DNA of 54,061 nucleotides, taken from positions 1 through 54,061 of the IMG/VR virus record IMGVR_UViG_3300043602_000277; one strand, written 5' to 3'. This DNA comes from a virus. The notes beneath the pieces were generated by a model. It was given only the letters and a program-made list of their open reading frames with translations, did no database searches and was not told the DNA's origin. Positions 3,487 to 54,061 of the stretch are shown here, piece after piece. Position 1 is the first letter of the stretch. Every line of letters begins with the position of its first letter. Position numbers and translations under genes: made by a program.

Positions 3487-3552
3487 GATGACGGGGTTAC
3501 ATTTTGACGGGTTACGATATGGTTTGACAGGTTTTGACAGGATGAGGGCAAT

Positions 3553-4080
3553 GTGGCGCTTTCGGCCAAACAGAAGGCATTCATCAATGAGTACCTATCT
3601 GACTTTAATGCGACCCGTGCAGCACAGCGGGCGGGATATGGCGGGGATGAGAACACCTTAGCAGTCACAGGCAGCAGATTGCTAAGAATTGATAAGGTTG
3701 CCGAAGCCATCGCGGCCCGAATGCAAGAGAAGGCCATGGGCGCGGATGAAGTGCTTAGGCGCCTTGCAGAACAGGCAAGGGCTGAATACAGCGCCTATCT
3801 CACAGCGAATGGCACGGTAGATTTTGCCCGGCTGATTGCGGATGGCAAAGGTCATTTGGTCAAGGGTATCAAAGATACCGCTCAGGGGCGCAACATCGAA
3901 TTTCACGACGCCCAAGCCGCGCTCGTGCAAATCGGCAAGCATCACAAGCTCTTTACCGACAAGGTAGAGGTGGAGCATTCCGGTACGGTCGAAATTACAG
4001 CAGACGAAAGAGCGCGGGCGGCAAAAGAGCTTGAGCAATGGAACGAACAGAAGAAAGCCGGCGCAACATCGAATGGCTAA
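3553..4080 (+). CDS. terS: Terminase small subunit A
   Basis: This 175-residue protein starts with GTG. MALSAKQKAFINEYL and NATRAAQRAGY are the classic DNA-binding start of Terminase_2-type small subunits. The C-terminal half (EYSAYLTANGTVDFARLI to HHKLFTD) is nearly identical to the second small subunit at 48523-49005, while the N-terminal half differs. It should recognise the packaging site and recruit the large subunit. The GTG is supported by the aligned ATG of the second copy. It overlaps the large subunit gene by 43 bp. Confidence 0.9.
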   Translation: MALSAKQKAFINEYLSDFNATRAAQRAGYGGDENTLAVTGSRLLRIDKVAEAIAARMQEKAMGADEVLRRLAEQARAEYSAYLTANGTVDFARLIADGKGHLVKGIKDTAQGRNIEFHDAQAALVQIGKHHKLFTDKVEVEHSGTVEITADERARAAKELEQWNEQKKAGATSNG

Positions 4081-5489: not shown

Positions 5490-5561
5490 TGCTGTCTACT
5501 TCTCCTTTTTTTCCAGCCATTGGGGCTAAAAAAAAGTAACCGAGCACAGAAAGCAGGTGGC

Positions 5562-7355
5562 ATGAACACCAAAACGACCATCGGGAGCGCTTTGGGCGCG
5601 ATTACCTTTACGACCAGTGACGTTCCCGCGCCCATAGGGCTCCCAGTCAGCACTTCACGCGTGAGCCGGCTCTTTGACCAGTTGACGTTGGAGCAAGCGC
5701 AGAACATTGTCAACTCTCGCCGCGACGACAACGCTGAGATCAACCTCGACTATCTGCGCGGCGACCACTGGCGCAACGGCGAGGGTTGGGTTGGGCCGAG
5801 GATCAGCAGCTACAACGACCCTGGCACCAGCCAGCTATCCCTGGCTGCGATCAAGAAAGCCTTTGTCTCCCGCAACACGATTGCCGAGGTCACACGCCGG
5901 CAGGTGGGCGGCGTCTTAGGCCGTGACCTGCACTGGAAATTCACAGTCAAGCGCGAGCTCGAGGAGACCGAAAAGACCGACCCTGTCACCCGCATCACCA
6001 AGATGGTCAAAGAACAGCCGAGCGCCGCAGAAGAGGCGTTGATCAATGAAGCCGAAGCTGCCCTGGTCAACTGGTGGGACAAACGCAGCGTCAAGGACGC
6101 CCTGGAAATGATGGACGCCTCAGCCCTCAACACCAAGCGCGGCGTGCTGCGCCTCTACGTGCCACCCGACCTGCGCGACGATGGCGGCAACCTGCCGCCT
6201 GGCGATCTGGAAACCTGCCTCGGTTACATCTGGCTCCAGCATCTCGGCACCAACGAAGATTCGCTCGAGCTCGAGTTTGCCAGCGGCACGGTCTATACCG
6301 AAAAACGTTCACGCCGGCAGCTAGGCGTCTTTACCTACAACGAAGCGCTGGATCTGGTCAGCCAGGAGCAGGGCAGCCAAAGCAACAGCGAGGATGAGCG
6401 CGCCGAGTTGACCTACCTCGACGATGCCGGCAACACCGTAATCCGCGTGATCGACGATGAAGGCGATGTCGAGCCGCCGATGGTGATGCCGCTCGGTGGC
6501 CGCTTGACCATTTTTGAGATGAACCGGACCTGGCTGATCACGCCGCAGGTGATCTCCTTGCAGAAGATGCTCAACCTCTCGCTGACGATGAAGCAGCGCA
6601 ACTCCGTGCAGGCAGGCTTCCTCGAACGCATCTTCTTCAACGTCGATTGGCCGAGCGAAAAGCGCGTCGTCGACGGCAAGGAGACCTGGGTTCGCAAGCC
6701 GATGGAGATCGGCCCGGGAGTTGCTACCGAGTTCAAGGGTCTGGAGATCCGCAACGATGACAACGACGTGACCGGCCATGCCACACCCAGCGTCGTCTAC
6801 CGCGATCCTGTCTCGCCTGCCACCTTCATCGAGACCGAAGAGAGCGCCTACAAAAGCATCCTGCAAGAGGTACAACAGCTCCACTACCTGATCGCGGGCG
6901 ATGCGGTAGTCTCGGGCGAAAGTCGCAAGCAGGCGCGTGATTCCTATACCCAGGACTTAAAGCTTTCCGCCAGCAAGGTGCAAGAGGCGGCGCGTTGGCT
7001 GCTGGAGACCGTGTTGGCCGAAGCCAGCTTCTTTGCCGGACGCGCCGGTGAGTTTGAGGGCTTACGCGCCTACGTGGAGGCGCACATTGACAGCGGGCCG
7101 ATTGGCCCTGATGACATGCGCGTGGCGCGCGAGATGCGCGACGGCGATCTGTGGTCGGAAGAGCGCGCCATGTCCGAGACGGGCGTTGAGGATGTCGATG
7201 CCGAGAAAGCGCGCATCGCCAAAGAGCGGGCGCAACGTTCCGAGCTCGACCAGAAAAACATGGCGGCCGCGCAGCAGTTCATGGCCGAGAACGCACCGCC
7301 AACCGGCAACCTAGCCAACAACCAGCCGAACAACCAAGGAGGCGCCAACGCGTGA
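5562..7355 (+). CDS. Portal protein A
   Basis: The protein has 597 residues. The ATG at 5562 follows an AGGTGG site; an upstream TTG at 5520 is less likely. It lies between the large terminase and the MuF-like gene, which is the portal position. Features include an early DNA-duct-like region (LVNWWDKRSVKDALEMMD), a long mid-region with QKMLNLSLTMKQRNS, and a Gln/Asn-rich C-terminal tail. It forms the dodecameric ring through which DNA passes. It shows no obvious similarity to the DUF1073-type portal of the second module. The identification rests on position and size as much as on sequence. It overlaps the next gene by 4 bp. Confidence 0.82.
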   Translation: MNTKTTIGSALGAITFTTSDVPAPIGLPVSTSRVSRLFDQLTLEQAQNIVNSRRDDNAEINLDYLRGDHWRNGEGWVGPRISSYNDPGTSQLSLAAIKKAFVSRNTIAEVTRRQVGGVLGRDLHWKFTVKRELEETEKTDPVTRITKMVKEQPSAAEEALINEAEAALVNWWDKRSVKDALEMMDASALNTKRGVLRLYVPPDLRDDGGNLPPGDLETCLGYIWLQHLGTNEDSLELEFASGTVYTEKRSRRQLGVFTYNEALDLVSQEQGSQSNSEDERAELTYLDDAGNTVIRVIDDEGDVEPPMVMPLGGRLTIFEMNRTWLITPQVISLQKMLNLSLTMKQRNSVQAGFLERIFFNVDWPSEKRVVDGKETWVRKPMEIGPGVATEFKGLEIRNDDNDVTGHATPSVVYRDPVSPATFIETEESAYKSILQEVQQLHYLIAGDAVVSGESRKQARDSYTQDLKLSASKVQEAARWLLETVLAEASFFAGRAGEFEGLRAYVEAHIDSGPIGPDDMRVAREMRDGDLWSEERAMSETGVEDVDAEKARIAKERAQRSELDQKNMAAAQQFMAENAPPTGNLANNQPNNQGGANA

Positions 7356-8251
7356 GCCGCCAACAGCTTATCGCCCTCCTTGCTAACCTAGTCTTTAAGG
7401 GTCATCTGACCCCGACCGAAGCGCGCCTGATCGTCGCAGCCTATGATCGGGGGGATCTGCCGGAAATCGAGAAGCTGGTCGCGCTTGACCAGGAGCAAAC
7501 CGATGAGCGCTGGAAGCTGGCGCTGCTGGCGGTGCTGCTGCTGGTCGGTGGCAGCATTGCCAGGCCGCTGACTACATCTGAGCGCCTGCGCGCGCGCCGT
7601 CTCTTGCCGCTGCGTTTTGAGGAGAGCACGGCGACGTTGGCGGCGCAGGTCGCCAATGGCGGCATCAGCCTGGCGAGGTGGCAGCCGGCGCTCTATGCGG
7701 CGCAGGCCGGCTATGCCATGCAGATGACCACAGGCGGCTATGGCGCCATGCCACCGCTGGGGCTGCGGGATGTCGTCGATGCCGGCATCAAGGCGCAGAT
7801 CCCGTTCATCGAACGCTTTGGCCTGCAAATCCTGGCCCAACGCCTGATTGGTGCTCGCATGAGCGCGGCGGTCATCGCCGGTCGATCTGCGCTCTATGGC
7901 GGTCTCGGCTGGGGTTCCTGGTTCAAGGGCAACGAAGAGCGGGTGCTGAGGCCACAGGCGCCTGGCATCGTGCCGCGGCGCGCTGACGCATCGACAGGCT
8001 GGGTCGTCTACTACCGGGCGCGCGACGACAACCGCACCTGCGGGCCTTGCCATGAGGCGGCAGCCAAAGGGCCATACCTGCCACTGGAGGGGCCATTTCC
8101 TGGCGACGTGTGCAAGGGGCGAGGTCGCTGTCGCTGCACGCGGGAGACGGTCTACGACCTGCAAGCCTGGCAGATCCTGACCGGCATCGTAGCGCCCGCT
8201 GCCAAGCCTCCTGGCGTCGGCGGCGGCGGAAACACGGTCGCCGTGCTATGA
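7352..8251 (+). CDS. MuF-like minor head protein A
   Basis: The 299-residue protein has an N-terminal helical region and one hydrophobic stretch (LALLAVLLLVGG). Its C-terminal MuF-type domain carries paired cysteines: CGPCHEAA, then GDVCKGRGRCRC, likely binding zinc. Such proteins follow the portal and help prohead assembly or are ejected with DNA. The second module has the same cysteine pattern at 51972-52688 (CSDC, then CRGNCKC). The start overlaps the portal stop and the stop overlaps the next ATG, so the three are translationally coupled. Confidence 0.85.
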   Translation: MSRQQLIALLANLVFKGHLTPTEARLIVAAYDRGDLPEIEKLVALDQEQTDERWKLALLAVLLLVGGSIARPLTTSERLRARRLLPLRFEESTATLAAQVANGGISLARWQPALYAAQAGYAMQMTTGGYGAMPPLGLRDVVDAGIKAQIPFIERFGLQILAQRLIGARMSAAVIAGRSALYGGLGWGSWFKGNEERVLRPQAPGIVPRRADASTGWVVYYRARDDNRTCGPCHEAAAKGPYLPLEGPFPGDVCKGRGRCRCTRETVYDLQAWQILTGIVAPAAKPPGVGGGGNTVAVL

Positions 8252-8448
8252 GCGGAGGCAAATCATTGCCAGAGACCGAAAATCGTGATACGCTTGACGG
8301 CGATTCCACCGAGTTTGTCATCGTCGCACGCCGCATACTCGAATCTGAACGCAGACTCTTACTCTCACGCTTGCACGAATTAAACCTGTTGCTCGGCTAC
8401 CCGCAGATCTACACGAGCAGGGAGCATCGGCGACAGGGACGCGAATAA
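8248..8448 (+). CDS. Small conserved helical protein before the capsid operon
   Basis: The 66-residue protein begins MSGGKSLPETENRD and ends with a helix RRLLLSRLHELNLLLGY and a basic tail. Its ATG overlaps the MuF-like stop (ATGA). The second module has a 68-residue counterpart at 53332-53538 with RLLIARLHLLRKQLGY. In both modules it is the last gene before a strong intrinsic terminator and the scaffold or DUF2213 gene. I do not know its function. Conservation of the motif and position says it is a real gene. Confidence 0.72.
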   Translation: MSGGKSLPETENRDTLDGDSTEFVIVARRILESERRLLLSRLHELNLLLGYPQIYTSREHRRQGRE

Positions 8449-8638: not shown

Positions 8639-9415
8639 ATGTTGATCACTCGCTGGAAGCAGGGAGCCGACATCATTCCTCTGCTGTACGACAACGACAC
8701 ACCGGCTGGCGATGCGCCGACTGGCGGGCTGTCCGAGGAGGCCATGAAGGCTTTCAACAAACGCCTGGAGAAGCTCGACAACAACGCGCAAGCGATGGCG
8801 ATGCTGCTCTTCGGCGAAAATTTCCAGCTGCGCGACAAAGTGCGCTCGATGGAGGGCAGGGTCTCTCCAGAGGGCGCAACCGTCTTAACCGGCGACGATG
8901 CCAAAGCCTGGGACATCTACAAGGCGCTGGGCAAGCCGGAAACCGTCAAGCAGGGTCTTGACGAGCGAGGCCAGTTCCAGGGTGAACTGGAGTCACTGAG
9001 GCGCGAGGCCATTCTACGCAGGGTCGCAGAGGTCGCCGGCTTCAAATACAACATTTTGGCCGACCGCGAAAAGGCGGCGAGGGCGGACAACAAACCGTTG
9101 GCCTTCGAGGTGCGCGAAGTTGAGGTGGATGGCGTCAAAAAGGCGACCGCCTTCATCAAGGAAGGCTCGACCGAAAAGACAGCCGAGGACTATGCCAGGG
9201 AGCAGTGGTCTGACTACCTCAGCGTCCTGCAAGTCACCCAGGGCGGTGACCAGCAGCAGAGCACAACCGCTGCCCACAATGGCACGCGCTTCATCGGCCA
9301 AACCGCAGCCAATGGCGGCAATCGGGGCGCACCTGATCCTGTCGCCAAATTCCTGCAAGAACAAGCCGAAGCGGCGAAGGCGATTAGCAATCCCTTCGTT
9401 ACACCAGACAAGTAA
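8639..9415 (+). CDS. Capsid assembly scaffold-like protein
   Basis: The 258-residue protein starts at ATG 8639 after AAGGAG. It is acidic and helix-rich, with a coiled-coil-prone segment (EAMKAFNKRLEKLDNN) and charged stretches (RREAILRRVAEVAGF). The C-terminus is low-complexity and Gln/Ala-rich, ending NPFVTPDK. Composition and place, directly upstream of the decoration-like and major capsid genes, fit a scaffold protein that shapes the prohead. No protease domain is visible. In the second module a DUF2213 gene occupies this position. Confidence 0.7.
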   Translation: MLITRWKQGADIIPLLYDNDTPAGDAPTGGLSEEAMKAFNKRLEKLDNNAQAMAMLLFGENFQLRDKVRSMEGRVSPEGATVLTGDDAKAWDIYKALGKPETVKQGLDERGQFQGELESLRREAILRRVAEVAGFKYNILADREKAARADNKPLAFEVREVEVDGVKKATAFIKEGSTEKTAEDYAREQWSDYLSVLQVTQGGDQQQSTTAAHNGTRFIGQTAANGGNRGAPDPVAKFLQEQAEAAKAISNPFVTPDK

Positions 9416-9425
9416 GGAGTCAACC

Positions 9426-10061
9426 ATGCCGTGGACACAAACCTCCTTTGTCGCGACACCTGATTTTATCGTCGATCCCGAATCCATCGACCGCAACAGC
9501 GGGCGAGTGATCGACTGGAGCCAGGTGCCGGACAGCTACAAGGCAGGCACAACCTATAGCATCACCACCACCGCACAAGCGGCGGCAGCTGCTGTCGCCA
9601 TTTTGGTGCAGGCGCTGCCGGTCGCCTTACCCAGCGGCACCGTGCTCAACTTTGCCGGCGCCGGACGCTTTGCCACACTCACCGCTCCCGCAGCGGTCGG
9701 CGCTACCAGCCTGACCGTTGAAGCGCTGGATGTCATCATCCCGACCGCCACCGCTGCACCCTATACCGTCTCCAAGAGCGGCAACAAGGCCATTCTCTCC
9801 GGCACCGTCATGGCGCAGCTCGCCAGTGGCAGAGTTGTGCCGAGGGCAGCCAGGCCAGGATCGGAAACGGCGATGGGCCTGCTGTGGGGAACCGCCATCG
9901 AGAACCTGCCCAGCGCGCCACTGAGCGGATATGCCATCATTGTCGGTGGCGTTATCTACGAAAACCTTCTGCCGGAGGTGATCACAGCCTTCAAGAGCGA
10001 ACTGGTCACCAATGGCTCCGGCTGGGTCTGGCAGACCTACCAAGATAGCACGGAGGCGTAA
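9426..10061 (+). CDS. Head decoration-like protein
   Basis: The 211-residue protein starts at ATG 9426 after AAGGAG. The sequence is rich in Ala, Thr and Val, with beta-type repeats (GAGRFATLTAPAAVGATSLTV and VSKSGNKAILSGTVM), a pattern typical of lambda gpD-like or related head stabilisation proteins. It is placed between scaffold and major capsid genes, 2 bp before the capsid ATG. The assignment is by position and composition. Confidence 0.62.
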   Translation: MPWTQTSFVATPDFIVDPESIDRNSGRVIDWSQVPDSYKAGTTYSITTTAQAAAAAVAILVQALPVALPSGTVLNFAGAGRFATLTAPAAVGATSLTVEALDVIIPTATAAPYTVSKSGNKAILSGTVMAQLASGRVVPRAARPGSETAMGLLWGTAIENLPSAPLSGYAIIVGGVIYENLLPEVITAFKSELVTNGSGWVWQTYQDSTEA

Positions 10062-10063
10062 GC

Positions 10064-11191
10064 ATGTTTACTAATTTTGCCGAAGCCCTGGCAGCGCTAG
10101 GGCCAAATGCCGGCGCGCGCATCATCAACGCCGCGCGCCCCACTTCCGACTATCTTCTCAACACCTTCCTGCCTGAGCGCCTCATGACCGATTACTCGGT
10201 CAACGCCGCCAACATGCTCGTCCGCACGACGATGGCCGGCATGGTCTCGATGGACAGCCCTTACCCGCCAGGCGGATTGGTCGAGCTGCAAACCTTCTTT
10301 GAACAGTCTCTCAAGCTCGGGATCAGCAACCGCATGATCGAGGCGCAGATCCGCCAGCTCCAGCAGTTGCTCATGGGGTTGCAACTCGCCGGTTCGCTGA
10401 CCAATGACTTCCTCCAGCGCGAGGCCTTCAACTTCTACCAAAAAACGGTCGTGCAGGCCATCCTAGACCGCGCCGAGTGGATGCGGGCGCAGGCGATGAT
10501 CTATGGCGCCATCAACTGGACATTCAACCAGAAGCCGGTCTCAGTCAGCTACGGCATCCCTGCCGGCAACTTCCTGACCACACGCACCGATGCCAACAAC
10601 GATTCCTACTCCGACACCGGCAGTAAATTTTGGGAAGATGTCGCCAACGCTCAGGGCATCCTGCGCTACAACCTGCGCGGCGCCGTTATGAACACCGCCA
10701 CCTATCTCAAAATTCTGAGCCAACCGGCCAACAACATCATCGTCCTGGCGCAGAGCAACAACAGCGTCACGGTCACGCGCACGACTTCACGCAGCGGCAA
10801 CACCGTGCAAGACAACGATGCTCGCTACACCATGCAGTTTGTGCTCTACGACCGTGAGGCCGAGGTGATGGACACCACGCCACCGAACCTGGGCAAGACC
10901 GAGATCAAAAAGTTTGTGCCAGATGGCAAGATCATCTACATCGGCGCCAACACCGCCAGTGGCTATGTGGTCGGCGAAGGCTCAACACGCAACCCACGCG
11001 CCGATATGGAGATCGGCTATCACCACATCGCCCCGACCGTTGAAGGCGGCGGCGCACCTGGCCGCTGGGGCCGCATGTACGTGCCGGAAGGCTATCCGAT
11101 GCAACTGATCGCCGAGGGCGCCAGCAACGAGCTGCCCGTCATCCTGGCGCCGGAGAAGATCTGCATCGCTACCACCGAGATGCTGCCGTAG
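10064..11191 (+). CDS. Major capsid protein (HK97 fold, gpE-like)
   Basis: The 375-residue protein has the pattern of lambda gpE-type capsids: an N-terminal YLLNTFLPERLMTDYS segment, a spine-helix region rich in Gln (EAQIRQLQQLLMGLQ), and a C-terminal A-domain-like stretch with DGKIIYIGANTASGYVVGEG and APEKICIATTEMLP. It follows scaffold and decoration-like genes. It forms the icosahedral shell. It is the only major capsid gene in the circle although two packaging modules are present. Confidence 0.88.
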   Translation: MFTNFAEALAALGPNAGARIINAARPTSDYLLNTFLPERLMTDYSVNAANMLVRTTMAGMVSMDSPYPPGGLVELQTFFEQSLKLGISNRMIEAQIRQLQQLLMGLQLAGSLTNDFLQREAFNFYQKTVVQAILDRAEWMRAQAMIYGAINWTFNQKPVSVSYGIPAGNFLTTRTDANNDSYSDTGSKFWEDVANAQGILRYNLRGAVMNTATYLKILSQPANNIIVLAQSNNSVTVTRTTSRSGNTVQDNDARYTMQFVLYDREAEVMDTTPPNLGKTEIKKFVPDGKIIYIGANTASGYVVGEGSTRNPRADMEIGYHHIAPTVEGGGAPGRWGRMYVPEGYPMQLIAEGASNELPVILAPEKICIATTEMLP

Positions 11192-43770: not shown

Positions 43771-44481
43771 ATGTCAGATCATACCACGCGTCCATTCCAA
43801 CCCGAACTTCCCTTCGACGAAATTCCCTACGGCTACTGCCAATGCGGCTGCGGGCAAAAGACCCATATTGAAACCCATACCCATCCAGAACGCGGCCAGT
43901 TCGCTGGTGAGCCACGACGCTTTCTGCGTGGGCATCAAGGCCGCAAACCTACACCCAAAGCCGATGAACTCAAGATTTGCTCGCGATGCAAGCAGGGCAA
44001 ACCTTTATCTGATTACTCCCAACGTCGGAGCGGCAAAAGAGCCGGTCAATACTATTCGCACTGCCGCGCCTGTGCAGTTGAGGCGACGATGGCAAGCCGC
44101 TCAAAAGACGCTTCGTATCAAGTGCGTCAAAGGGAACTTCAGCGAAAATTTCGCGAGCGTCATCAGGAGCGACTTACTATCAAGTCATCTGAGCGATATG
44201 CTAAGAATCCTGAAGCTAGAAAAGCTGGCGCACGAAAAACCAGAGAGAAAAATCCGTTGCGCGAAAAGGCGCATATTGCCGTTCGACGCGCCATAGCACG
44301 GGGCGATCTTCCTCCTGCAACAGCAATGGTATGTGAACGATGCCAAGAAGCGCAGGCTGCTCACTGGCATCACGATATGGGATACGCCGAGGAATATCGT
44401 CTACACGTAATCGCTCTATGCAAGTCGTGTCATGGAAAGGCGCATTGGCTAGATATTGGCGAATCTAATCGGACTTCATGA
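43771..44481 (+). CDS. HNH homing endonuclease
   Basis: The 236-residue protein has three parts. The first is an N-terminal Cys-rich module (YCQCGCGQKTHIETHTH, then RRFLRGHQGRKP). The second is a middle zinc finger (ICSRCKQGKPLSDYSQRRSG, YYSHCRACAVE) and a basic helix. The third is a C-terminal HNH with CERCQEAQAAHWHHDMGY and VIALCKSCHGKAHW. It overlaps the endolysin by 26 bp, and the endolysin then has only a TTG start. It looks as if the endonuclease landed at the endolysin's 5' end. Confidence 0.85.
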   Translation: MSDHTTRPFQPELPFDEIPYGYCQCGCGQKTHIETHTHPERGQFAGEPRRFLRGHQGRKPTPKADELKICSRCKQGKPLSDYSQRRSGKRAGQYYSHCRACAVEATMASRSKDASYQVRQRELQRKFRERHQERLTIKSSERYAKNPEARKAGARKTREKNPLREKAHIAVRRAIARGDLPPATAMVCERCQEAQAAHWHHDMGYAEEYRLHVIALCKSCHGKAHWLDIGESNRTS

Positions 44482-46336
44482 TTTCGAGGGAATAGAAATA
44501 GCGGCTCCAGATAGTTGGATCCTGGATACAATCGCGCTCAGTGAAAACCCATCGCCCAAGATTTACCCAAGTAACTTCAATACGATTGTCAGGGTTAACT
44601 GGGCATATGGCAGCGGCGGAACCTTGCCCTTGCCATCCGTTTACGAGGCCTTCTCGGAGCTGGTCGCCGCCTATGTCGATGGCTGTACTGGCTGCCGGCG
44701 CTGGATCATCGGCAACGAGCCAAACCTGAGCCGTGAATGGCCCGACAACACGCCCATCTATCCCTGGCACTATGCCGCCTGCTACAAGCTCTGCTGGCAA
44801 GCCATCCATGCGCTGCCGGGCCATGCCAACGACGAGGTGCTGGTCGCTGGCAGTGGGCCGTGGAACGCCGAGCTAAAGTACAACAGCAACAAAAACGGCG
44901 ACTGGATTGTCTATTTTACCGACGTGATTAACTTGGTTGGGGATGCCTGCGACGGCTATAGCATCCATGCCTATACCCATGGCTACGATGTGTCCCTAGT
45001 CACGTCATCGGCGCGTATGGATCGCCCCTTCCAGAACCACTTTTACGAGTTCTACACCTATCGCGATTATTGCCTTGCCATCCCGCCTGAGCTGCGCTAT
45101 CTGCCGGTCTATCTGACGGAGGCCAACGGCAATGGCCCGTGGCAAGCCGTGGGGCTGATGCCGGCCATGTTGCAGGAGATCGATAGCTGGAACCATAGCA
45201 AGCTGCCCAAGATTCACAGCGTGATCTTCTACCGCTATCCACGCTATGACCAGTTTTACATTGAGGGCCGCGGCGATGTCATGGCCGAATACCAACGGGC
45301 CGTCGCCCTGGGCTATCAGGCGCCTATCACACCCACATTGCCCACGCCGGAACCGCCCGACCCAGAGCCGCCACGGCCCACGCCTGCGCCTGAGCCTGCG
45401 CGTGACATCGACCCGCGCCTGCTCGCCCGCGGCGTTACACTCACGCGTGCGACTGTTCCTGTGGGCACCTATGCTTGGCGCGTAGAGGAGGGCATCTACT
45501 ATGCTTGGGGCGAAGGGCCAAACGATGCCCAGGGCCGGCGCGCCGACTATGTGGACGTGGTGAATGGCAACGGTGAGCGCGTCATTGGTACGCCGATCAT
45601 GCACTGGTGGTCTAGCGGCTCAGACACCAAGCCGGCTGAGAACAAACGCGATCCGTGGATGACCGCTCAGGGTAAAGACGGCTATGCCCTCGACTTCCCT
45701 TTTGGCGCTACCTGGCCCAGCTACGGCGTCAAAATTGCCGACGGTACGCCCAGCGATGAAGTGTGGGGCCTCGGCTATGGCGATGTGATCAACCCGAACC
45801 ACCACACGGCCAGCTATTTTAAGTTTGTACGCGTACTAGAGGGCGTTACAGCGCCGATTCCTCCCACACCACCAGTACAGGAAGGGGGTCTAATCCATCC
45901 CCTTCCTGGTGCGGTGATTACGCAGCATTGGGGCCAGGATGCCGAGAGCTACGCACGTTTTGGCATTTGGGGCCATAACGGGACGGATCTAGGAAATAGA
46001 CCACTCCGCACGCCGATCCGCTGCATCGCCGCCGGCATCGTGGCAATGTCCGACTTTGACCCTGCCTATGGCCACTATGTGCGCGTCGATCACCGGGACT
46101 TGGAGTGCTATTCGATGTACTGCCATTTGGATGAGTCGGGCGCAGCGGCGGGTACGCGCGTGGAAGCGGGGGACACGATGGGGCTGCTGGGGTCAAGCGG
46201 CAATAGTTCTGGGCCTCATTTGCACGTTGAAATTCGGTTACAAAACAAAGATGGCACGTACCGCGAAGATACGCCTATGTCTAAAGGCCGAGTTGACCCT
46301 GAGACTTGGTGCGCCATGCACAATCTCAAATTGTGA
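44456..46336 (+). CDS. Endolysin B: glycosidase-like, beta domain, M23 peptidase
   Basis: The 626-residue protein has three parts. Residues 1-285 resemble a clan-A glycoside hydrolase (IGLHDFEG start, RRWIIGNEPN with the likely acid/base Glu, VYLTEANGNGPW with a second Glu). A Pro-rich linker leads to a beta domain (about 315-465, WRVEEGIYYAWGEGP). An M23 peptidase follows (from about 476) with zinc ligands His507, Asp511, His588 and His590 and a catalytic-type His557. It should attack both glycan and peptide parts of the wall. The only in-frame start is TTG 44456, within the HNH gene. The true start may have been lost to the insertion. Confidence 0.85.
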   Translation: MANLIGLHDFEGIEIAAPDSWILDTIALSENPSPKIYPSNFNTIVRVNWAYGSGGTLPLPSVYEAFSELVAAYVDGCTGCRRWIIGNEPNLSREWPDNTPIYPWHYAACYKLCWQAIHALPGHANDEVLVAGSGPWNAELKYNSNKNGDWIVYFTDVINLVGDACDGYSIHAYTHGYDVSLVTSSARMDRPFQNHFYEFYTYRDYCLAIPPELRYLPVYLTEANGNGPWQAVGLMPAMLQEIDSWNHSKLPKIHSVIFYRYPRYDQFYIEGRGDVMAEYQRAVALGYQAPITPTLPTPEPPDPEPPRPTPAPEPARDIDPRLLARGVTLTRATVPVGTYAWRVEEGIYYAWGEGPNDAQGRRADYVDVVNGNGERVIGTPIMHWWSSGSDTKPAENKRDPWMTAQGKDGYALDFPFGATWPSYGVKIADGTPSDEVWGLGYGDVINPNHHTASYFKFVRVLEGVTAPIPPTPPVQEGGLIHPLPGAVITQHWGQDAESYARFGIWGHNGTDLGNRPLRTPIRCIAAGIVAMSDFDPAYGHYVRVDHRDLECYSMYCHLDESGAAAGTRVEAGDTMGLLGSSGNSSGPHLHVEIRLQNKDGTYREDTPMSKGRVDPETWCAMHNLKL

Positions 46337-46355
46337 TGAAAGGGAAGGGATCGTG

Positions 46356-46502
46356 ATGAGTCGTCCACTGATTCTGATTTCGCTATTGCTGGCCGTCGTC
46401 GGCGCCATCTTTGGCCTGGCGCACATTGCCGAGGCCTTTGTGCCGCTGCTCTTTGCCGCTGCCATCCTGCTGACGGATATTGGGATACTGACCGGCAACT
46501 AA
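46356..46502 (+). CDS. Small two-helix membrane peptide, holin candidate (module B)
   Basis: The 48-residue protein (MSRPLILISLLLAVVGAIFG, then FVPLLFAAAILLTDIGILTG) has two membrane segments. It follows the endolysin after 19 bp with a GGGAAGGGA ribosome site. A GTG one codon earlier is a second possible start. It corresponds to 2252-2401 in module A. Confidence 0.7.
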   Translation: MSRPLILISLLLAVVGAIFGLAHIAEAFVPLLFAAAILLTDIGILTGN

Positions 46503-47050
46503 TGAAAGCGCACTGGCTTTACCTAAAATATGTTTTGCGCCATAAGTGGTATGTATTCCTGTGGTGCTGTCGGTATGGGATTCCGTGGGCGGGCATTGTT
46601 CACGACCTGAGCAAATTCCAGCCAATCGAATGGTTCCCCTATGTTGACAAGTTTTATGGTGGGCCGTGGCCTGAGCAGCACTATGGAGATATGCGTAACC
46701 AGTTTGAGGATAGGTATACGCAGCCCTGGGTAGACCGTCGCTTTGACGCCGCATGGAATCATCATCAAAAGTGCAATCTGCATCATTGGCAATATTGGGT
46801 ACTGCTTGAGGATAGCGGCAAGATTGGCGCTTTGCCCATGCCCGACCGTTACCGCAAAGAAATGTTGGCCGACTGGCGCGGGGCGGGGATGGCGATTCGT
46901 GGGGTAGATAACACTGTCAAATGGTACACCGAAAACTTCTCCAAGATGCTTTTGCATCCACAGACGCGTGATCGGATTGAGCGTGAATTGGATTTGATTG
47001 TCAACGTCAATGGCGAGGATATGCGCCTTCTTGATTCGGAGACGCTGTAA
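46502..47050 (+). CDS. DUF5662 family protein
   Basis: The 182-residue protein matches the DUF5662 pattern: YVLRHKWYVFLWCCRYG, IPWAGIVHDLSKFQPIEW, then AAWNHHQKCNLHHWQYWVL. The many His and Asp residues (HDLSKF, NHHQ, HHWQYW) suggest a metal-binding HD-like fold. No activity is established to my knowledge. It is coupled to the holin-like gene and takes the accessory slot that module A uses for other cargo. Confidence 0.8.
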   Translation: MKAHWLYLKYVLRHKWYVFLWCCRYGIPWAGIVHDLSKFQPIEWFPYVDKFYGGPWPEQHYGDMRNQFEDRYTQPWVDRRFDAAWNHHQKCNLHHWQYWVLLEDSGKIGALPMPDRYRKEMLADWRGAGMAIRGVDNTVKWYTENFSKMLLHPQTRDRIERELDLIVNVNGEDMRLLDSETL

Positions 47051-47056
47051 CGTGCT

Positions 47057-47218
47057 ATGCCACGCGGCGATCTGGCGCTGTTCCTGTTCGTATGCAGCCT
47101 GGCGGTCTTTTTTGCCGAGATGCAGTACCGGCGTGAAGCGTCTACGCGTTGGCTGTGTCTTGCGCTAGTCTGGATTACGATTGTGGCCATGCTGATCTAC
47201 GTGTACAGCGGGGCTTAA
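47057..47218 (+). CDS. Second small membrane protein of module B
   Basis: The 53-residue protein has two membrane segments (DLALFLFVCSLAVFFAEM and WLCLALVWITIVAMLIYVY) split by a charged turn. It is a holin or antiholin candidate paired with 46356-46502. No counterpart is seen in module A. Confidence 0.62.
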   Translation: MPRGDLALFLFVCSLAVFFAEMQYRREASTRWLCLALVWITIVAMLIYVYSGA

Positions 47219-47220
47219 CC

Positions 47221-47520
47221 ATGTCAACAGACAATTGGTTCGTCATCATCATGTTTATCGGCGTGTACATCTGTTGCCTGCTCCTGCTCGACGGCGCCCA
47301 CCGTGCCCACATCGCCGCGCTGAAGGGGGCGCATTACGAGCAGGTGGCATCCTTGCGCTCCTACATCCGCACGTTGAGCCGCGAACGGCTGTGGCTGGAG
47401 GCGGAGCTGGCACGCGTCAAGGACAAGGCGAAGCAGGTGCAGGCTGAGCCGGAACATATCGAATGGATGCCGTTGCAGTGGTTACCGCCGTCCGAGGAAT
47501 ATGATGGCGACCGCAATTGA
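47221..47520 (+). CDS. Membrane-anchored coiled-coil protein, module B
   Basis: The 99-residue protein starts MSTDNWF, has one membrane helix (IIMFIGVYICCLLLLDG) and the same coiled coil as the module A protein (SYIRTLSRERLWLEAEL, then QAEPEHIEWMP). It is a spanin-like or holin-partner candidate. Near-identity of the coiled coil between modules points to recent common ancestry or exchange. Confidence 0.72.
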   Translation: MSTDNWFVIIMFIGVYICCLLLLDGAHRAHIAALKGAHYEQVASLRSYIRTLSRERLWLEAELARVKDKAKQVQAEPEHIEWMPLQWLPPSEEYDGDRN

Positions 47521-47932
47521 GCTGTTGCCGGAATTTATCGGCATCTTCGTGCCGCTGGAGATCATGCGCCTGGAAGAGGTGGGCGGGCCGAAACCAACGG
47601 AGTTGGCCGCAGCGTCTGCCTACTGGGCGGATCGCCTGGACGCCGGCGAGCTTGACGAGCTGCTCTTCCCGGTCAAGTGCAAGACGGCGCGCAGCGCCAG
47701 CATGTTGGTGTCAATCATCGCCTGCCTGGCGTTTGAGACGGGCGGCGTGCGGGTCTTTGGACACCACTTTGTTGCCTATGAACCAGAGCCCGCACATAAA
47801 CAGCCCTGGCACAAGCCCACCGTGGTTTATGTGCCGCTACAGGGAACGGGCTTTGAGGTCGGTTCGGACATTGACGGACAGGACGGCACGTGGCCGCCGC
47901 CACTAATGGACAAAGAAAAAACCGGCTGCTAA
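47501..47932 (+). CDS. Conserved lysis-module protein, module B
   Basis: The 143-residue homologue of 2724-3008 (PEFIGIFVPLEIMRLEEVGG, LDAGELDELLFPVK, then MLVSIIACLAFE) has an extra C-terminal part (KPTVVYVPLQGTGFEVGSD). The start could be 47501 or 47504. It overlaps the coiled-coil gene by 20 bp. Function unknown. Confidence 0.7.
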   Translation: MMATAIELLPEFIGIFVPLEIMRLEEVGGPKPTELAAASAYWADRLDAGELDELLFPVKCKTARSASMLVSIIACLAFETGGVRVFGHHFVAYEPEPAHKQPWHKPTVVYVPLQGTGFEVGSDIDGQDGTWPPPLMDKEKTGC

Positions 47933-47937
47933 GCCGG
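47915..47937 (-). terminator. Intrinsic terminator of the leftward gene, module B
   Basis: CCGGCT-GCTA-AGCCGG is followed on the minus strand by a long T tract. It overlaps the ends of both convergent genes, as does its module A equivalent (3010-3032). Confidence 0.75.
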
Positions 47938-48279
47938 CTCTAATTCCATCTGTAATTGTTCGAGCTTGACAGGCGTTTTCTGTGCCTGCTTGCCATAGGT
48001 GATGATGCGCTGCCTTTGCTCTTCACGCTGCACCTGTTCCCGTTGCCGCTCTTCCACCGCCTCAGCCTGTTCGACAAGGCCGGCGGGCAGCTCGTAGGGA
48101 TTGTGCTCAATTACGTCTAGCTCGCCGCGGCCGATTCTGCGAATCATGACTTGCCAGCTCGGTATGCTACGCCTGGCGGGGCCACGGGTGGGACGCGAAC
48201 GGGTCTGCACGGCTAGTTCTTGCAGCCGCTCCAGTTCGGCGGCGGTCAGGTCGATGCGGTGATGTTCTCGGTGTTCCAT
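47929..48279 (-). CDS. Small DNA-binding-like protein, module B
   Basis: The start at 48279 (MEHREHHRIDLTAAELERLQ) was chosen by alignment with the module A protein and the promoter at 48341-48369. The 116-residue protein has an N-terminal regulator-like segment. It shares with the module A protein the charged helix (VEERQREQVQREEQR) and the end QKTPVKLEQLQMELEPA. The DNA-contact half differs between modules, as if each protein recognises its own upstream region. Confidence 0.65.
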   Translation of the reverse strand: MEHREHHRIDLTAAELERLQELAVQTRSRPTRGPARRSIPSWQVMIRRIGRGELDVIEHNPYELPAGLVEQAEAVEERQREQVQREEQRQRIITYGKQAQKTPVKLEQLQMELEPA

Positions 48280-48522
48280 GTGTTTCTCCAATCTGAACAG
48301 GGCGGGCAAGTTGTGATGCTGCTGTGGCCCTATAGCTACGTATATAGCACGAATGTTAACGGTAATCAAGATGACGGGGATACAATTTTGACAGGTGCTG
48401 TCAATTTTTCCGCCGCCTGCCCCTCTCCGCCGCCACCCAGAGGGTTCCCGCCGCCAAAGGCTGACAGCGGGCGCGAAGTAGCAGGACTGCTAGCGGCGGG
48501 CGACATATGACAGGTTGAGCCA
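48280..48522. promoter_or_regulatory. Terminase upstream region B: leftward promoter, palindrome and insertion
   Basis: On the minus strand TTGATT (48369-48364), 17 bp and TATATA (48346-48341) form the leftward promoter. The blocks GTGATGCTGCTGTGGCCCT and AAGATGACGGGG match module A. A perfect palindrome TTGACAG-GTG-CTGTCAA is at 48388-48404. It is followed by about 110 bp of GC-rich sequence absent from module A, lying between two TGACAGG copies (48389 and 48507). The region may also hold the packaging site. Confidence 0.7.
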
Positions 48523-49005
48523 ATGGCTTTATCGGCCAAACAAAGCGCATTCGTAGAGGAATATTTGCGATGCTGGAATGCGACAGACGCTTATCAGACC
48601 GTTTATCCAAAGTCGAGTCGGGACGCGGCCAGAGCACACGCAGCGCGATTGGTAGCAAATGGTAGCATTGCCGCAGAGATTCAGCGCCGTGTAGATGAAC
48701 GCGCCATGTCCGCCAATGAAGTGCTTGATCGTCTTGCGGAGCAGGCCAGGGCCGGCTATAGCGCCTATCTCACAGCGGACGGTGCAGTAGATTTTGCTCG
48801 GCTGGTCGCCGATGGCAAGGGACACTTGGTCAAGGGCATCAAAGATACAGCGCAAGGACGTAATATCGAGTTTCACGACGCCCAGGCCGCGCTCGTGCAA
48901 ATCGGCAAGCACCACAAGCTCTTTACAGATAACGTGCAACAATCCGGTGAGGTAGTGGTAAAAGTCCAATATGGCGATGACGGAACTGACAGTACGCCTG
49001 AATAA
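48523..49005 (+). CDS. terS: Terminase small subunit B
   Basis: The 160-residue protein begins MALSAKQSAFVEEYL and NATDAYQTVYP, a Terminase_2-type DNA-binding start. The C-terminal half (YSAYLTADGAVDFARLVADG to HHKLFTDN) is almost the same as in module A. The large subunit it feeds is, however, of another type. It overlaps the large subunit gene by 35 bp. Confidence 0.9.
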   Translation: MALSAKQSAFVEEYLRCWNATDAYQTVYPKSSRDAARAHAARLVANGSIAAEIQRRVDERAMSANEVLDRLAEQARAGYSAYLTADGAVDFARLVADGKGHLVKGIKDTAQGRNIEFHDAQAALVQIGKHHKLFTDNVQQSGEVVVKVQYGDDGTDSTPE

Positions 49006-50242
49006 GCCACACCCCAAACAGCGCCAGTTTCTGCGCTGCCCGGCCAAGCGCATCGTGGTGCGGGCCGGCCGACGCGGCGGCAAAACGGTCGGCATGGCCA
49101 TCAAGGCCGTGGAGAGTTTTCTGCGAGGACACCGCGTGCTCTACGCCGCGCCCACGGCTGACCAGATCAACACCTTTTGGCGCCATGTGCGCGATGCTCT
49201 TCAGCCTTGCATCGACGCCGGCCTCTATTACAAGAACGAAACCGAGAAGATCGTCGAATTGCGTGGCACGGAGCAGCGCATCAAAGCAAAGACCGCTTGG
49301 AACAGCGACACTCTTCGTGGAGACTATGCCGATCTGCTCATCCTCGATGAGTGGCAGTTGATGAATGAAGATGCCTGGGGCGTCGTCGGTGCGCCGATGC
49401 TTCTGGACAATGACGGCGATGCGGTCTTTATCTATACGCCGCCATCGGCGCGTACGGCTGGCACCAGCAAGGCGCATGACAAAAAACATGCGGCCAAGCT
49501 CTTTGCGGCAGCGGCTGCCGATACGACGGGGCGTTGGGCGGCCTTTACCTTTAGCAGCCACGACAACCCCTATTTGAGCCAAGATGCTTTGGGGGAAATT
49601 GCCGGCGACATGAGCAATCTGGCCTATCGCCAGGAAATCATGGCTGAGGACATTGACGAGGTTCCGGGGGCATTGTGGACGCGGGCGAACTTAGAAAAGC
49701 ATCGTATCAAGTCAGCGCCTTCAATGTACCGCATCGTCGTGGCGGTAGACCCGGAAGCCACGGCCACGGCCACCAGCGCCGAGACGGGCATCATCGTGGC
49801 AGGCATCGACGAAAACGAGATCGGCTATCTCTTGGAGGATTGTACGCTGCGGGGATCGCCTGGCGAGTGGGGTATGGCTGCCGTGCGCGCCTTTGATCGC
49901 TGGGACGGCGATCACATTGTCGCCGAAACCAATAACGGCGGTGACATGGTGAAATTTGTGGTCGAGGCGGCTGCCAAGGAGTTATATCGGCAGGAGGAGC
50001 GCAAGAGCGACCGTATACCTTACAAGAAACTGCACGCCAGCCGGGGAAAACATACGCGCGCCGAGCCGGTATCAACGCTCTACGAGAATGGCCGTATTAA
50101 GCATGTCGGTGCTTACGCCGAGCTGGAAGATCAGTTATGTACGTGGTTGCCGGGTGATACGAGTCCCGATCGCTTAGATGCGGCTGTGTGGGCCTTTACC
50201 GAGTTGATGCTTTCAGAGAAGAAAAAAGCCGGAACATGGTAA
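48971..50242 (+). CDS. terL: Terminase large subunit B
   Basis: The 423-residue protein has a canonical Walker A, AGRRGGKT (32-39), Walker B LLILDEWQL (122-130) and a coupling-type FIYTPPS. The C-terminal nuclease has VAVDPEA (257-263), AETNNGGD (318-325) and DRLDAAVWA (400-408). The pattern fits the Terminase_6 group and differs from large subunit A. The start could be ATG 48971 or 48977. It packages DNA with the portal encoded 16 bp downstream. Confidence 0.93.
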   Translation: MAMTELTVRLNKPHPKQRQFLRCPAKRIVVRAGRRGGKTVGMAIKAVESFLRGHRVLYAAPTADQINTFWRHVRDALQPCIDAGLYYKNETEKIVELRGTEQRIKAKTAWNSDTLRGDYADLLILDEWQLMNEDAWGVVGAPMLLDNDGDAVFIYTPPSARTAGTSKAHDKKHAAKLFAAAAADTTGRWAAFTFSSHDNPYLSQDALGEIAGDMSNLAYRQEIMAEDIDEVPGALWTRANLEKHRIKSAPSMYRIVVAVDPEATATATSAETGIIVAGIDENEIGYLLEDCTLRGSPGEWGMAAVRAFDRWDGDHIVAETNNGGDMVKFVVEAAAKELYRQEERKSDRIPYKKLHASRGKHTRAEPVSTLYENGRIKHVGAYAELEDQLCTWLPGDTSPDRLDAAVWAFTELMLSEKKKAGTW

Positions 50243-50258
50243 GAATGAGTGAGGAACA

Positions 50259-51758
50259 ATGTCAGACATCATCCTGATCGCTAACAAAGACGGGCAACCG
50301 GTTGGCGCCATCCCGCGGCCCAGCGTAAACGCCCGCTCCGTCCTCAGCGACCGCCTGGCCCTGGGCGGCTATGGCACATCGTTCAGTGGCGCCCGTGACT
50401 ACTTCGATGTGCTGGGCTATCCCAAGGCACTCAGTATCGATGCCTATTGGGGCAAGTTTGAGCGTGATCCGTTGGGCGGGCGCATCGTCGAATTTCCGCC
50501 GGCAGAGACATGGCGGGATACGCCGACGGTCAAGGATGGGCGTGATAAGGATGCCCTCGACGACACCGCCTTTGCTAAAGCGTGGGCCGACTTTGCCGAA
50601 CGAATGCGCGTCTATCACTACTGCAAGCGCGTCGACATCCTGTGCGGCATCGGGCGCTTTAGCATCCTCCTGATTGGCGTGGCCGGCGGCGGTGATTTGG
50701 AGAGCGAAGTCAAGCGCGTCACTAGCCTTGACCAGATCCTCTACCTGCGCCCGTACGGTGAGCAATCGGTCGAGGTGACCGAATACGAGAACGACCCGGC
50801 AAGCCCGCGCTTTGGCCTGCCGCGCATCTACACGGTCACGTTTGCCGATACCAATACCCTGGGCAATATGGGCACCATTCAGCGCCGCGTCCATGCCAGC
50901 CGCGTGATCCATGTCGCCGAGGGGCTGCTGGAAAACGACGTGTACGGGATGCCGCGGCTGCAACGCGTCTATAACCTGCTCGACGACATCCTCAAGTTGG
51001 TGGGTGGGGCTGCCGAGGCCAGTTGGCTGCTGATGCGGAAGGGCTTTGTACTCAACATCGACCCGGAAGCGGAACTATCCGCCGAGGCCGCCGCCAGCAT
51101 CGAAGAGGAGTTTGACGAATACGAGCATGGTCTACGCCGCTTTATGAAAACGCGCGGCGTCACGGTCAGCGACCTTGGCAGCGAAGTGGTTGACCCGTCG
51201 GGGCCGTTTAGCGTCATCATCGGCCTGATTAGCGCCGCCACCGGCATCCCGCAGCGCATCCTGCTTGGCAGCGAGCGCGGCGAGCTGGCATCTTCGCAAG
51301 ACGGTGCCAATTGGGCGGGGGCCATTGCCAGCCGCCAGCTCAACTTTGCCGAGCCGACGATCCTGCGCCCGCTGATTGACCGCCTCATCCAGTGGGGCGC
51401 TATGCCGGCGCCCACGCAGGGCCGCTATACCGTCGTGTGGGATGAACTCTTTGAACTCAACGACCAGGAACGGGCCGCCATCGCCGTGGCCTGGGCCGAT
51501 GCCATCCAGAAGCTAGCAGCCGTCTACGGTATGCCGCCGGTAACGATGGAGGAATGGCGCGGCGACTTCTCGCCCTTCCCCGGCGAATTGCCGGTGACGG
51601 CCCTGGAGCCTGTACCGCCGCCCACCATACCCGCCAATCTGCCTGGCCAGGATGTGCTGGGGCAAGTGGCCGACCTGGTGGGCAACGCCGGCTACAGTGG
51701 GCCGGAAGCGTTTGCGCTGGTCAACGCAGCGGCTAGGCTGATTGCGAGGCAAGGATGA
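50259..51758 (+). CDS. Portal protein B (DUF1073/Phage_portal_3 type)
   Basis: The 499-residue protein follows the DUF1073 portal family: DYFDVLGYPKALSIDAYWGK, GRIVEFPPAETWR, a central RVHASRVIHVAEGLLEND, and SAATGIPQRILLGSERGELA near the C-terminus. Databases sometimes label this family Acb1-like because of a shared domain name, but the place after the large terminase makes it the portal. It is unrelated in sequence pattern to portal A. The stop overlaps the next ATG. Confidence 0.87.
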   Translation: MSDIILIANKDGQPVGAIPRPSVNARSVLSDRLALGGYGTSFSGARDYFDVLGYPKALSIDAYWGKFERDPLGGRIVEFPPAETWRDTPTVKDGRDKDALDDTAFAKAWADFAERMRVYHYCKRVDILCGIGRFSILLIGVAGGGDLESEVKRVTSLDQILYLRPYGEQSVEVTEYENDPASPRFGLPRIYTVTFADTNTLGNMGTIQRRVHASRVIHVAEGLLENDVYGMPRLQRVYNLLDDILKLVGGAAEASWLLMRKGFVLNIDPEAELSAEAAASIEEEFDEYEHGLRRFMKTRGVTVSDLGSEVVDPSGPFSVIIGLISAATGIPQRILLGSERGELASSQDGANWAGAIASRQLNFAEPTILRPLIDRLIQWGAMPAPTQGRYTVVWDELFELNDQERAAIAVAWADAIQKLAAVYGMPPVTMEEWRGDFSPFPGELPVTALEPVPPPTIPANLPGQDVLGQVADLVGNAGYSGPEAFALVNAAARLIARQG

Positions 51759-52018
51759 CACCAGAACAGCTAGCCAAGTGGGCCGAGAACCAAATTCAAG
51801 CCCTGATCCGCATCGGCTATGACGCCTCTGAGGCCGAGCGCAGCGTCAATTGGGTGCTGATGCACTTGCCGCCAGGGGCCGATCCAAGAACGTACGTATT
51901 CCCGGCTGAGACGCTGAGTGAACCGTTAGATAGCGCCGCTGTCGAGGGCGCACGCATAGCATGGTATACAAATGATGCGATCCCCAACCGCTACAAACGT
52001 TTACTCGACGCACGCTAG
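51755..52018 (+). CDS. Small protein between portal B and MuF B
   Basis: The 87-residue protein (MTPEQLAKWAENQIQALIRI, then AERSVNWVLMHLPPGAD) is coupled to the portal stop and overlaps the MuF-like gene by 47 bp in another frame. It may be the N-terminal half of a MuF-like protein separated by a frameshift, since module A has one longer protein. It may also be an independent head protein. Confidence 0.6.
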   Translation: MTPEQLAKWAENQIQALIRIGYDASEAERSVNWVLMHLPPGADPRTYVFPAETLSEPLDSAAVEGARIAWYTNDAIPNRYKRLLDAR

Positions 52019-52688
52019 CCCGTCGCCAACGCTGCCCGGCTACACCTTTGAGGATGAGCTGGGCCGCTACCGTTCCAACGTGTCGGGCCGTTTCGTGGCG
52101 CGCAAGGATATTCTGTCGCTGACGGACGCCCAGATCAACGCCAGCGAGGCGCGCATGACCGACCTGACGACGGCGGTGATGGAAGGGCGTATCAGCCCGA
52201 CGGTATGGCAGGAGGCCATGAGGACGGAAGCCAAGCAGCAAGTGCTGTCACAGGCCGCCCTCGGCTCAGGCGGTTGGGAGAGAATCAGCCAGCAATCCTA
52301 TGGCCGCGCCGGCGCTGACTTGCGCCAACTCTACGCCAAGATTAGTGGCACGGCTGCCGACATCGCAGACGGCAAAATCACGATGGCGCAAGCGCAGGCA
52401 CGCGCCAACGAATACGCCGGTCACGGTCGCAGCCACTTCTACACGGCCGAGCGGGAGAAGGTCAGGCCATCGGCGCCGAACAAAGTGTTCCTGGAGCGGC
52501 GTATGTTGGGCGGGGGCGGCAAAACGTGTAGCGATTGCGTTTCCTTCTATGACCAGGGTTGGCAGCCGTTTGGCCTGCTACCGCCGCCCGGTGTGGACAG
52601 CGTATGTCGTGGCAACTGTAAGTGCAGTCTGATTCGCATGGAAGTCGAAGCGGGCACCGTGGGCGAGTGGATCGGCGGCAAGAAATGA
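51972..52688 (+). CDS. MuF-like minor head protein B
   Basis: The protein has up to 238 residues. The first 20 overlap the previous gene, so the true start may be later or produced by frameshift. The body has RYRSNVSGRFVARKDILS, helices TDLTTAVMEGRISPTVWQEA and the Cys pattern CSDCVSFYDQG, then SVCRGNCKCSLIRM, as in MuF A. It acts in head assembly. The stop overlaps the next ATG. Confidence 0.8.
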   Translation: MMRSPTATNVYSTHASPSPTLPGYTFEDELGRYRSNVSGRFVARKDILSLTDAQINASEARMTDLTTAVMEGRISPTVWQEAMRTEAKQQVLSQAALGSGGWERISQQSYGRAGADLRQLYAKISGTAADIADGKITMAQAQARANEYAGHGRSHFYTAEREKVRPSAPNKVFLERRMLGGGGKTCSDCVSFYDQGWQPFGLLPPPGVDSVCRGNCKCSLIRMEVEAGTVGEWIGGKK

Positions 52689-53329
52689 AACGAATCTTTG
52701 TAACCTTTGGCACCGGGCCGCACGTCGAATATCTGAACATCAGCCGGCCATCGTTTATAGCCTATGCCGAGCGTCACGGCTATGACTATCAGGAAATCTA
52801 TATTCCGAGCGACCGCCCAGCATCGTGGAGCAAAATCCCTGCAATGCTACAAGCTCTTACGCTGGCCGATGAGGCATTGTGGGTTGATGCCGATGTCGTC
52901 ATCGTAGACGGCAGCAGGGATTTGGCCGCAGAAGTGAGTATCGACGCCATCCAAGCCGTAGTTTTACACACCTATCATCGTGGCTTCTTCCTGGGCCACG
53001 TGCCCAGCGCCGGCGTGTGGTTGGTGCGCCAAGCCATGCGCCCTACGCTCACGCAGATCTGGACAATGACGCAGTACCTGAACCATCCCTTTTGGGAAAT
53101 GGCTGCATTCATCGAATTGATGGGCTGCACCTTCAACGGCGATCGGATATTTCCTGTTACCTTGACCGAACCGACCAATCTTTATCGCAGCACCCAATTC
53201 CTTGATGAGGATTGGAACTCGATTGACACGCTCAACCATCAGGCCACGCCGCGCTTTATGCACATGCCGGCGCTCACGCACGAACAGCGCCTCGCTGAGA
53301 TGCACTTCTGGGCGGGGCAGGCAGTGTAG
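52685..53329 (+). CDS. Glycosyltransferase-like protein in the head module
   Basis: The 214-residue protein starts at ATG 52685 (MKRIFVTFGTGPHVEYL). It has a nucleotide-sugar fold pattern: SWSKIPAMLQALTLADEALWVDADVVIVD with a DxD motif, then FFLGHVPSAGVWLVRQAMRP and a C-terminal TPRFMHMP. It resembles GT-A transferases of the galactosyltransferase type. It is coupled to MuF B and has no counterpart in module A, so it is cargo within the head operon. It could glycosylate a virion protein or a host surface sugar. Confidence 0.72.
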   Translation: MKRIFVTFGTGPHVEYLNISRPSFIAYAERHGYDYQEIYIPSDRPASWSKIPAMLQALTLADEALWVDADVVIVDGSRDLAAEVSIDAIQAVVLHTYHRGFFLGHVPSAGVWLVRQAMRPTLTQIWTMTQYLNHPFWEMAAFIELMGCTFNGDRIFPVTLTEPTNLYRSTQFLDEDWNSIDTLNHQATPRFMHMPALTHEQRLAEMHFWAGQAV

Positions 53330-53331
53330 AG

Positions 53332-53538
53332 ATGAGCGAATCACGCGCAGGCTATCTCACGAACCAAGCCGCAAAGGTTGTTGCTCAAAACGGCAATAAG
53401 TGTGATACCATTACCGTCAACCGGGCCGACCTTGAGCAGGAACATCGTTTACTCATCGCCCGCTTGCATCTGTTACGCAAGCAACTCGGCTACGCACCGC
53501 TGACCGACAAAGAACAACAGCGACAAGCCGCTAAATAA
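53332..53538 (+). CDS. Small conserved helical protein, module B
   Basis: The 68-residue protein has LEQEHRLLIARLHLLRKQLG, the same motif as the module A protein at 8248-8448. It lies immediately before the terminator. Function unknown. Confidence 0.7.
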   Translation: MSESRAGYLTNQAAKVVAQNGNKCDTITVNRADLEQEHRLLIARLHLLRKQLGYAPLTDKEQQRQAAK

Positions 53539-53565
53539 ATAATTCCGCCTCACGGTAAAGCCCTA

Positions 53566-53607
53566 CGGCGCAATTCTGGTCAATTCCAGAGTTGCGCCGT
53601 TTTTTTT
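53566..53607 (+). terminator. Intrinsic terminator before DUF2213, module B
   Basis: CGGCGCAA (53566-53573) pairs with TTGCGCCG (53592-53599), with CTGG/CCAG inside, followed by eight T. It occupies the same place as the nested-hairpin terminator of module A (8481-8546). Confidence 0.88.
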
Positions 53608-53629
53608 GTTGTTTTGGAGCGCCATCGCA

Positions 53630-54061
53630 ATGCTCACCCTACAATTTTCCGGCAACGCCACCACAGGCCAAGTCAAAGAGATCACCCACGGCGGCAGGCG
53701 CTATCTGGTGTCACCCGTCGTCGCCCTGCGTGAGGGCATCCTCAACGATACCTACGTCAGCGCCGCCGAATTCGGCAAGTTCGCCTCATCCTGGCAGGGC
53801 CGCCCCGTTCCGATTGCACACCCCAAAGCCGATGGCCTGCCCACATCCGCCAACACGCCCGACATCTGGGCCAATGACGTGCTGGGCCATCTCTGGAATG
53901 TGGCCGTGGACGGCGGCGCGCTCAAAGGCGAAATCTGGATCACGTTTGAATGGACTATATCTGAGGGCATCGCTCCGCCCATTGTCCCACCAGCGACGGA
54001 CGTTGAGACAGGGCGTGTTACAGCACAAGCCGGCCTCAACGTTCGCCGTGGGCCGGATACG
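53630..54061 (+). CDS. DUF2213 head protein N-terminus, running into the endolysin frame at the join
   Basis: ATG 53630 after TTGGAGC opens a frame whose first 103 codons match the DUF2213 start (VALREGILNDTYVSAAEFGK, WQGRPVPIAHPKADG, then LGHLWNVAVDGGALKGEIW). At codon 103, where the family normally continues with an acidic stretch, the sequence switches to the endolysin A frame (TFEWTISEG, then the SH3b domain). The remaining 41 codons are the terminal repeat. The frame is kept through the join to 730. The second half of DUF2213 and the rest of head module B are absent. Confidence 0.8.
   Translation, partial: MLTLQFSGNATTGQVKEITHGGRRYLVSPVVALREGILNDTYVSAAEFGKFASSWQGRPVPIAHPKADGLPTSANTPDIWANDVLGHLWNVAVDGGALKGEIWITFEWTISEGIAPPIVPPATDVETGRVTAQAGLNVRRGPDT
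53935..54061. repeat. Terminal direct repeat, right copy
   Basis: Identical to bases 1-127. Its left edge coincides with the switch from DUF2213 to endolysin sequence. Confidence 0.95.

Follow-up and report, generated by a model that had tools for sequence, protein, structure and literature searches.

Why would a single phage genome hold two packaging modules, and is the record in which they are found the record of a single phage? The viral record IMGVR_UViG_3300043602_000277, which at its full length of 54,061 bases is the window analysed here, ends in an exact 127-nt repeat (left copy 1..127, right copy 53935..54061), and this repeat upholds the circular topology that an earlier note had given it, a circle of 53,934 bases. 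According to that note, the circle holds two complete lysis-packaging modules, A at 1-8448 and B at 44456-53538. The note gave two explanations: either the contig unites two related phages, or it is a real hybrid that has a packaging set to spare. Our analysis of the sequence argues for the join of two related phages; a working spare set is unsupported, since the B set comes without a whole protease, a decoration protein or a capsid and since genes at the join are broken. As to where the join was made, we give a probability of roughly one half to the reading that the record is a chimera in which two related phages were put together, without homology at the join, in the library or in the assembly.

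Gene content of the two modules

Module B lies on the plus strand except for one gene. It opens with a full-length endolysin (44456..46336), glycosidase-like at its N-terminus and of the M23 type at its C-terminus, followed by a hydrophobic, holin-like peptide of 48 residues found in a hydropathy scan (46356..46502) and a DUF5662 protein (46502..47050, PF18907) without a counterpart in module A. Comparison of the two modules identifies a coiled-coil protein (47218..47520), a conserved lysis-region protein (47501..47932) and a leftward gene on the minus strand (47929..48369). Then come terS (48523..49005; Terminase_2, PF03592, E 2e-20), terL (48971..50242; PF17289, phrog_2), a portal gene (50259..51758; Phage_portal_3, PF06381, E 5e-30), a MuF-like protein that falls in phrog_24776, a family of unknown function (51972..52688), and a small protein (53332..53538). 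The earlier note ended the module at this point, but downstream of a terminator-like hairpin (53565..53600, plus strand, 15 pairs and then a T run), which lies 3' of the packaging genes and 5' of the protease, there follows a head-maturation protease of PHROG 760 (plus strand, from 53630), which breaks off at about 53941, leaving its N-terminal part of about 105 residues.

Module A, for its part, begins in the middle of a gene. Its endolysin (2..730, plus strand) consists of a linker and an M23 peptidase domain (PF01551) and lacks the first 440 or so residues. Inside the lysis region, on the minus strand, lie a BrnT toxin/BrnA antitoxin pair and an HTH protein (1225-2179). The remaining genes are on the plus strand apart from the leftward gene (3023..3400, minus): a hydrophobic, holin-like peptide of 49 residues, again from the hydropathy scan (2252..2401), a coiled-coil protein (2408..2731), the conserved lysis-region protein (2712..3008), terS (3553..4080; PF03592, Terminase_2, E 1.6e-26), terL (4038..5489; phrog_2, E 4e-34), a protein in the portal position (5520..7355), one in the MuF position (7352..8251) and a small protein (8281..8448). 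They are followed by scaffold-like, decoration (phrog_3583) and major capsid genes (8642..11191, plus strand; phrog_29 major head protein, PF03864), which are the sole head set in the window. Among viral contigs and phage records we found no relatives of this capsid.

Thus both blocks are present, but neither is complete, as each loses part of one gene where the circle closes. The common gene order claimed for them holds broadly but not in detail: module A has the leftward BrnT/BrnA pair and HTH protein, and module B has the DUF5662 protein and a weakly glycosyltransferase-like gene. The homology claimed for the lysis proteins is borne out, with 46% identity for the C-terminal part of the endolysin, 61% for the coiled-coil protein and 90% over 88 residues for the lysis-region protein, and so is that of TerS (64% at the protein level, with the C-terminal half 83% identical at the DNA level). 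The leftward gene, the small protein and the MuF-like protein are 48%, 42% and 24% identical, respectively. The two TerL proteins are indeed unlike each other (E 0.38, a pairwise similarity that is not meaningful), and the proteins in the portal position share a match of just 21 residues. At the DNA level, the longest exact match between the modules is 26 nt, and their direct repeats are 74-85% identical.

Of the names given to these genes, TerS and TerL can stand in both modules. The label of portal is secure in module B but comes from position alone in module A, where the protein matched nothing in Pfam, PHROG or PDB, had no relatives in viral contigs, phage records or genomes, and gave an AlphaFold model with a pLDDT of 36. 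The MuF label has no Pfam support in either module, and the scan that found the hairpin after module B returned none after module A.

A conserved intergenic element of about 60 nt (core ATCAAGATGACGGGG..TACA) sits between the leftward gene and terS in both modules, at 3453..3512 (plus strand, 80% identical to L002, the relative described below) and at 48341..48404 (plus strand); it recurs at L002:8904-8964 and, in another viral contig, at L125:10884-10934. It is possibly a packaging site or a promoter/operator. Elsewhere in the window, a GmrSD_N (DUF262-like) protein (31723-33003, plus strand) lies beside a ParB-like gene (30792-31694), a pair that may be defence or partition cargo, and short tandem palindromic repeats (TCACGCTGAGCGTGAC) occur at 38924-39014 within a replication-region gene (38655-39488).

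Relatives of the two modules

The closest guide to module B is a B-type phage, L002 (IMGVR_UViG_3300020020_000123), which shares synteny with the window across the replication region and on through module B. It carries, in the same order, an integrase, replication genes, a B-type endolysin, TerS, TerL (91% identity), portal (83%), the MuF-like protein (78%) and the N-terminus of the protease (69-71% over its residues 1-105), although it has one packaging module where the window has two. In L002 the protease is intact, a protein of 400 residues that matches head-maturation proteases (phrog_530; PF09979, DUF2213), and decoration and capsid-like genes follow it, whereas the protease of the window is cut. 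The tail and tape-measure genes of L002 are also related to those of the window, which match L002 and G002, a relative of the A-type TerL, about equally and so give no position for a second crossover between the A head genes and the B lysin.

Between the window and L002, dN is 0.057 and dS 1.49 for the B-type TerL, and 0.117 and 0.72 for the portal, values which show that the genes of module B were under constraint until recently. Such constraint fits either origin of the join and counts only against an old, unused duplicate. Among cellular genomes, a MAG of Chloroflexi (59%) and one of Dehalococcoidia (62%, partial) hold the nearest relatives of this TerL, at most a hint at a host in these groups.

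How unusual is a double set among these phages? The window has two TerL genes, a marker expected once per genome, while each of 22 other TerL-bearing records, some of which are fragments and many of which may be, has one. Combinations of TerL and portal do vary: an A-type TerL goes with a B-type portal in L084, L085, L087, L088 and L094, and in L003 (1412-2857) and L005 (3398-4786) a B-type TerL (89% identity) is followed by a portal of the SPP1 type, not Phage_portal_3. This mosaicism means that swaps of packaging parts are normal in the group; a double set is not. As a separate observation, in L005 (2520-3287), and in L004 as well, an intein-like insert that is in frame and matches Hint_2 and Intein_splicing splits the B-type TerL behind residue ~397, and another frame holds an HNH-like ORF (L005:2609-3244); the TerL genes of L003, L002 and the window are without it.

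The join between protease and endolysin

The two modules do not meet at a module boundary. They meet within two genes, at 53935-53941, which are also positions 1-7 of the circle. Here the B protease runs in frame and without a stop across the closure into the A endolysin, giving a frame of 352 residues. Residues 9-112 of this frame can be aligned with the L002 protease, the alignment ending at ...GEIWI, and its last 164 with the C-terminus of the L106 lysin. The DNA match to L002 ends abruptly at 53940, inside the protease gene, so that about 295 of 400 residues are gone. The protease is likely cut before its catalytic region, as the lost part includes a VSTGY stretch that we take to lie near the active site. 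A search of the window for the decoration and capsid genes of L002 found neither.

The other partner is truncated as well. A pattern scan with the motif W-I-x-F-E-W-x-I-x-E-G, which the window shares, returned three viral lysins, L106 (with an M23 domain 63% identical to that of the window), L124 and L125. Their middle domain ends ...HTSTWIDFEW and they carry a glycosidase-like N-terminal domain at the place where the window carries the protease fragment. Because all three are full length, the A endolysin can be said to be missing about 1.33 kb, a stretch found in L106 and L125. The three bases ahead of the shared TGG are ACC in L125, ACG in L106 and L124, and ATC in the window, and therefore only C-TGG-AT(C), 6-7 nt, is plausibly common to the two parents.

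The C of this overlap is also the very first base of the 127-nt repeat, whose right copy starts with CTGGATC and whose left copy is all A endolysin sequence. Were the circle opened at random, the chance of opening at this exact base would be 1.9e-5, and within the 7-nt overlap 1.3e-4. We consider it unlikely that this repeat belongs physically to the ends of a linear phage genome, as a direct terminal repeat, because it starts in the middle of the fused ORF and has an odd, k-mer-like length. Collapse of the assembly at a shared repeat is ruled out by the 26-nt limit on exact matches between the modules and by the length of the overlap at the join. As this overlap is shorter than a k-mer collapse would need, there must be reads, or else a chimeric molecule, that run across the join. 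The 30-mer across it occurred in no other viral contig, in a scan that may omit the window's own record and near ones.

Reconstruction of the assembly

The length of the repeat, 127, is a common assembler k. We therefore took k = 127 from it, and a de Bruijn assembler with it, and rebuilt the graph with the lysin of L125 as a stand-in for the A-native lysin arm, bearing in mind that in practice assemblers use read pairs, too, when they resolve branches. A graph of the circle and an unbroken A-type lysin arm yields a single loop unitig, which is identical to the record. With a B-native arm, on the other hand, the circle opens at 53814 instead, and with both native arms the result is a contig of 53,940 bases that has no terminal repeat. 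That the record is returned with the A-native arm suggests that, in the sample, the B protease and the native A lysin both led into position 1 from upstream. The record shows no B-native branch, a point in favour of a frequent join and, with it, of a real molecule. A scan with the L002 protease for the B-native continuation in the same sample gave L002 itself and one match of 29%.

Discussion

How could such a record arise? In the reading to which we give even odds, two phages that occurred together, both presumably in the sample, would have been joined in the library or the assembly, that is, outside a cell, with the intact A-type lysin arm also among the reads. The record would then start inside the A endolysin, run through the packaging, head and tail genes of A, the integrase and the replication region to the endolysin and packaging module of B, stop inside the B head-maturation protease, and close onto the A endolysin through the 6-7 nt that the two share. 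We favour a chimera because the 22 other records have one TerL each, because the repeat starts at the overlap and because both genes are cut. Against an origin in library or assembly speak the overlap, which is much shorter than the k of any assembler, and the lack of an unresolved B-native branch in the record.

These same two points favour a real DNA molecule, formed by rare illegitimate recombination within one cell at the TGG-AT microhomology between the B protease gene and the A endolysin gene, a tentative reading but one to be taken seriously. A further crossover at some place in the backbone common to both phages would be required, and the outcome would be a genome with an orphan B module, coexisting with the A-type phage and probably either defective or short-lived. 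All the B genes upstream of the cut protease are intact and under constraint relative to L002, relatives differ in their TerL/portal combinations, and phage mosaicism is accepted to come from illegitimate as well as from homeologous exchange (PMC2327257). Yet the molecule would exceed the estimated native A-type genome of 45.8 kb by about 8 kb, with no B capsid to justify the surplus; one gene of each parent is broken; the direct repeats between the modules should permit loss of the extra one; and the join has been seen in this record alone among viral contigs. A stable, replicating phage that has captured a second module is very improbable by comparison. There, B would be a spare or alternative motor and either motor would fill the one A-type capsid with a genome of nearly unit length, with the protease-endolysin fusion carried along. 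Both sets are intact from terS through portal, the TerS proteins are similar, and the two elements before terS are 44.88 kb apart, near one native genome length. The B motor and portal, however, have no cognate protease beyond residue 105, decoration protein or capsid, the A endolysin has lost its N-terminal part and is fused to a protease fragment, and neither the double TerL nor the join recurs in the records compared.

The practical point is that a record such as this, with a terminal repeat, would readily be taken for a complete genome. A cheap check suggests itself: where a terminal repeat of k-mer length starts exactly in a gene fusion, the circle deserves no trust until reads have been mapped to it. 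If, on the other hand, the molecule is real, it would be a rare view of an illegitimate recombinant between phages at a time when the useless module has yet to be lost.

Two comparisons with known systems place the record. Peaks at k-mer lengths have been reported among the terminal repeats of viral contigs, where such repeats are known assembly products and circular templates are apparently opened at a random place (CheckV paper, PMC8116208). The window resembles those contigs in its exact terminal repeat of typical k-mer length and differs from them in that it opens exactly at a gene fusion. Published phages with two TerL annotations also exist (PMC10773633, PMC11512304, PMC11273794); in these, the TerL genes lie side by side or represent a single TerL whose two domains have been split, whereas the window has two complete and dissimilar TerL genes in separate modules.
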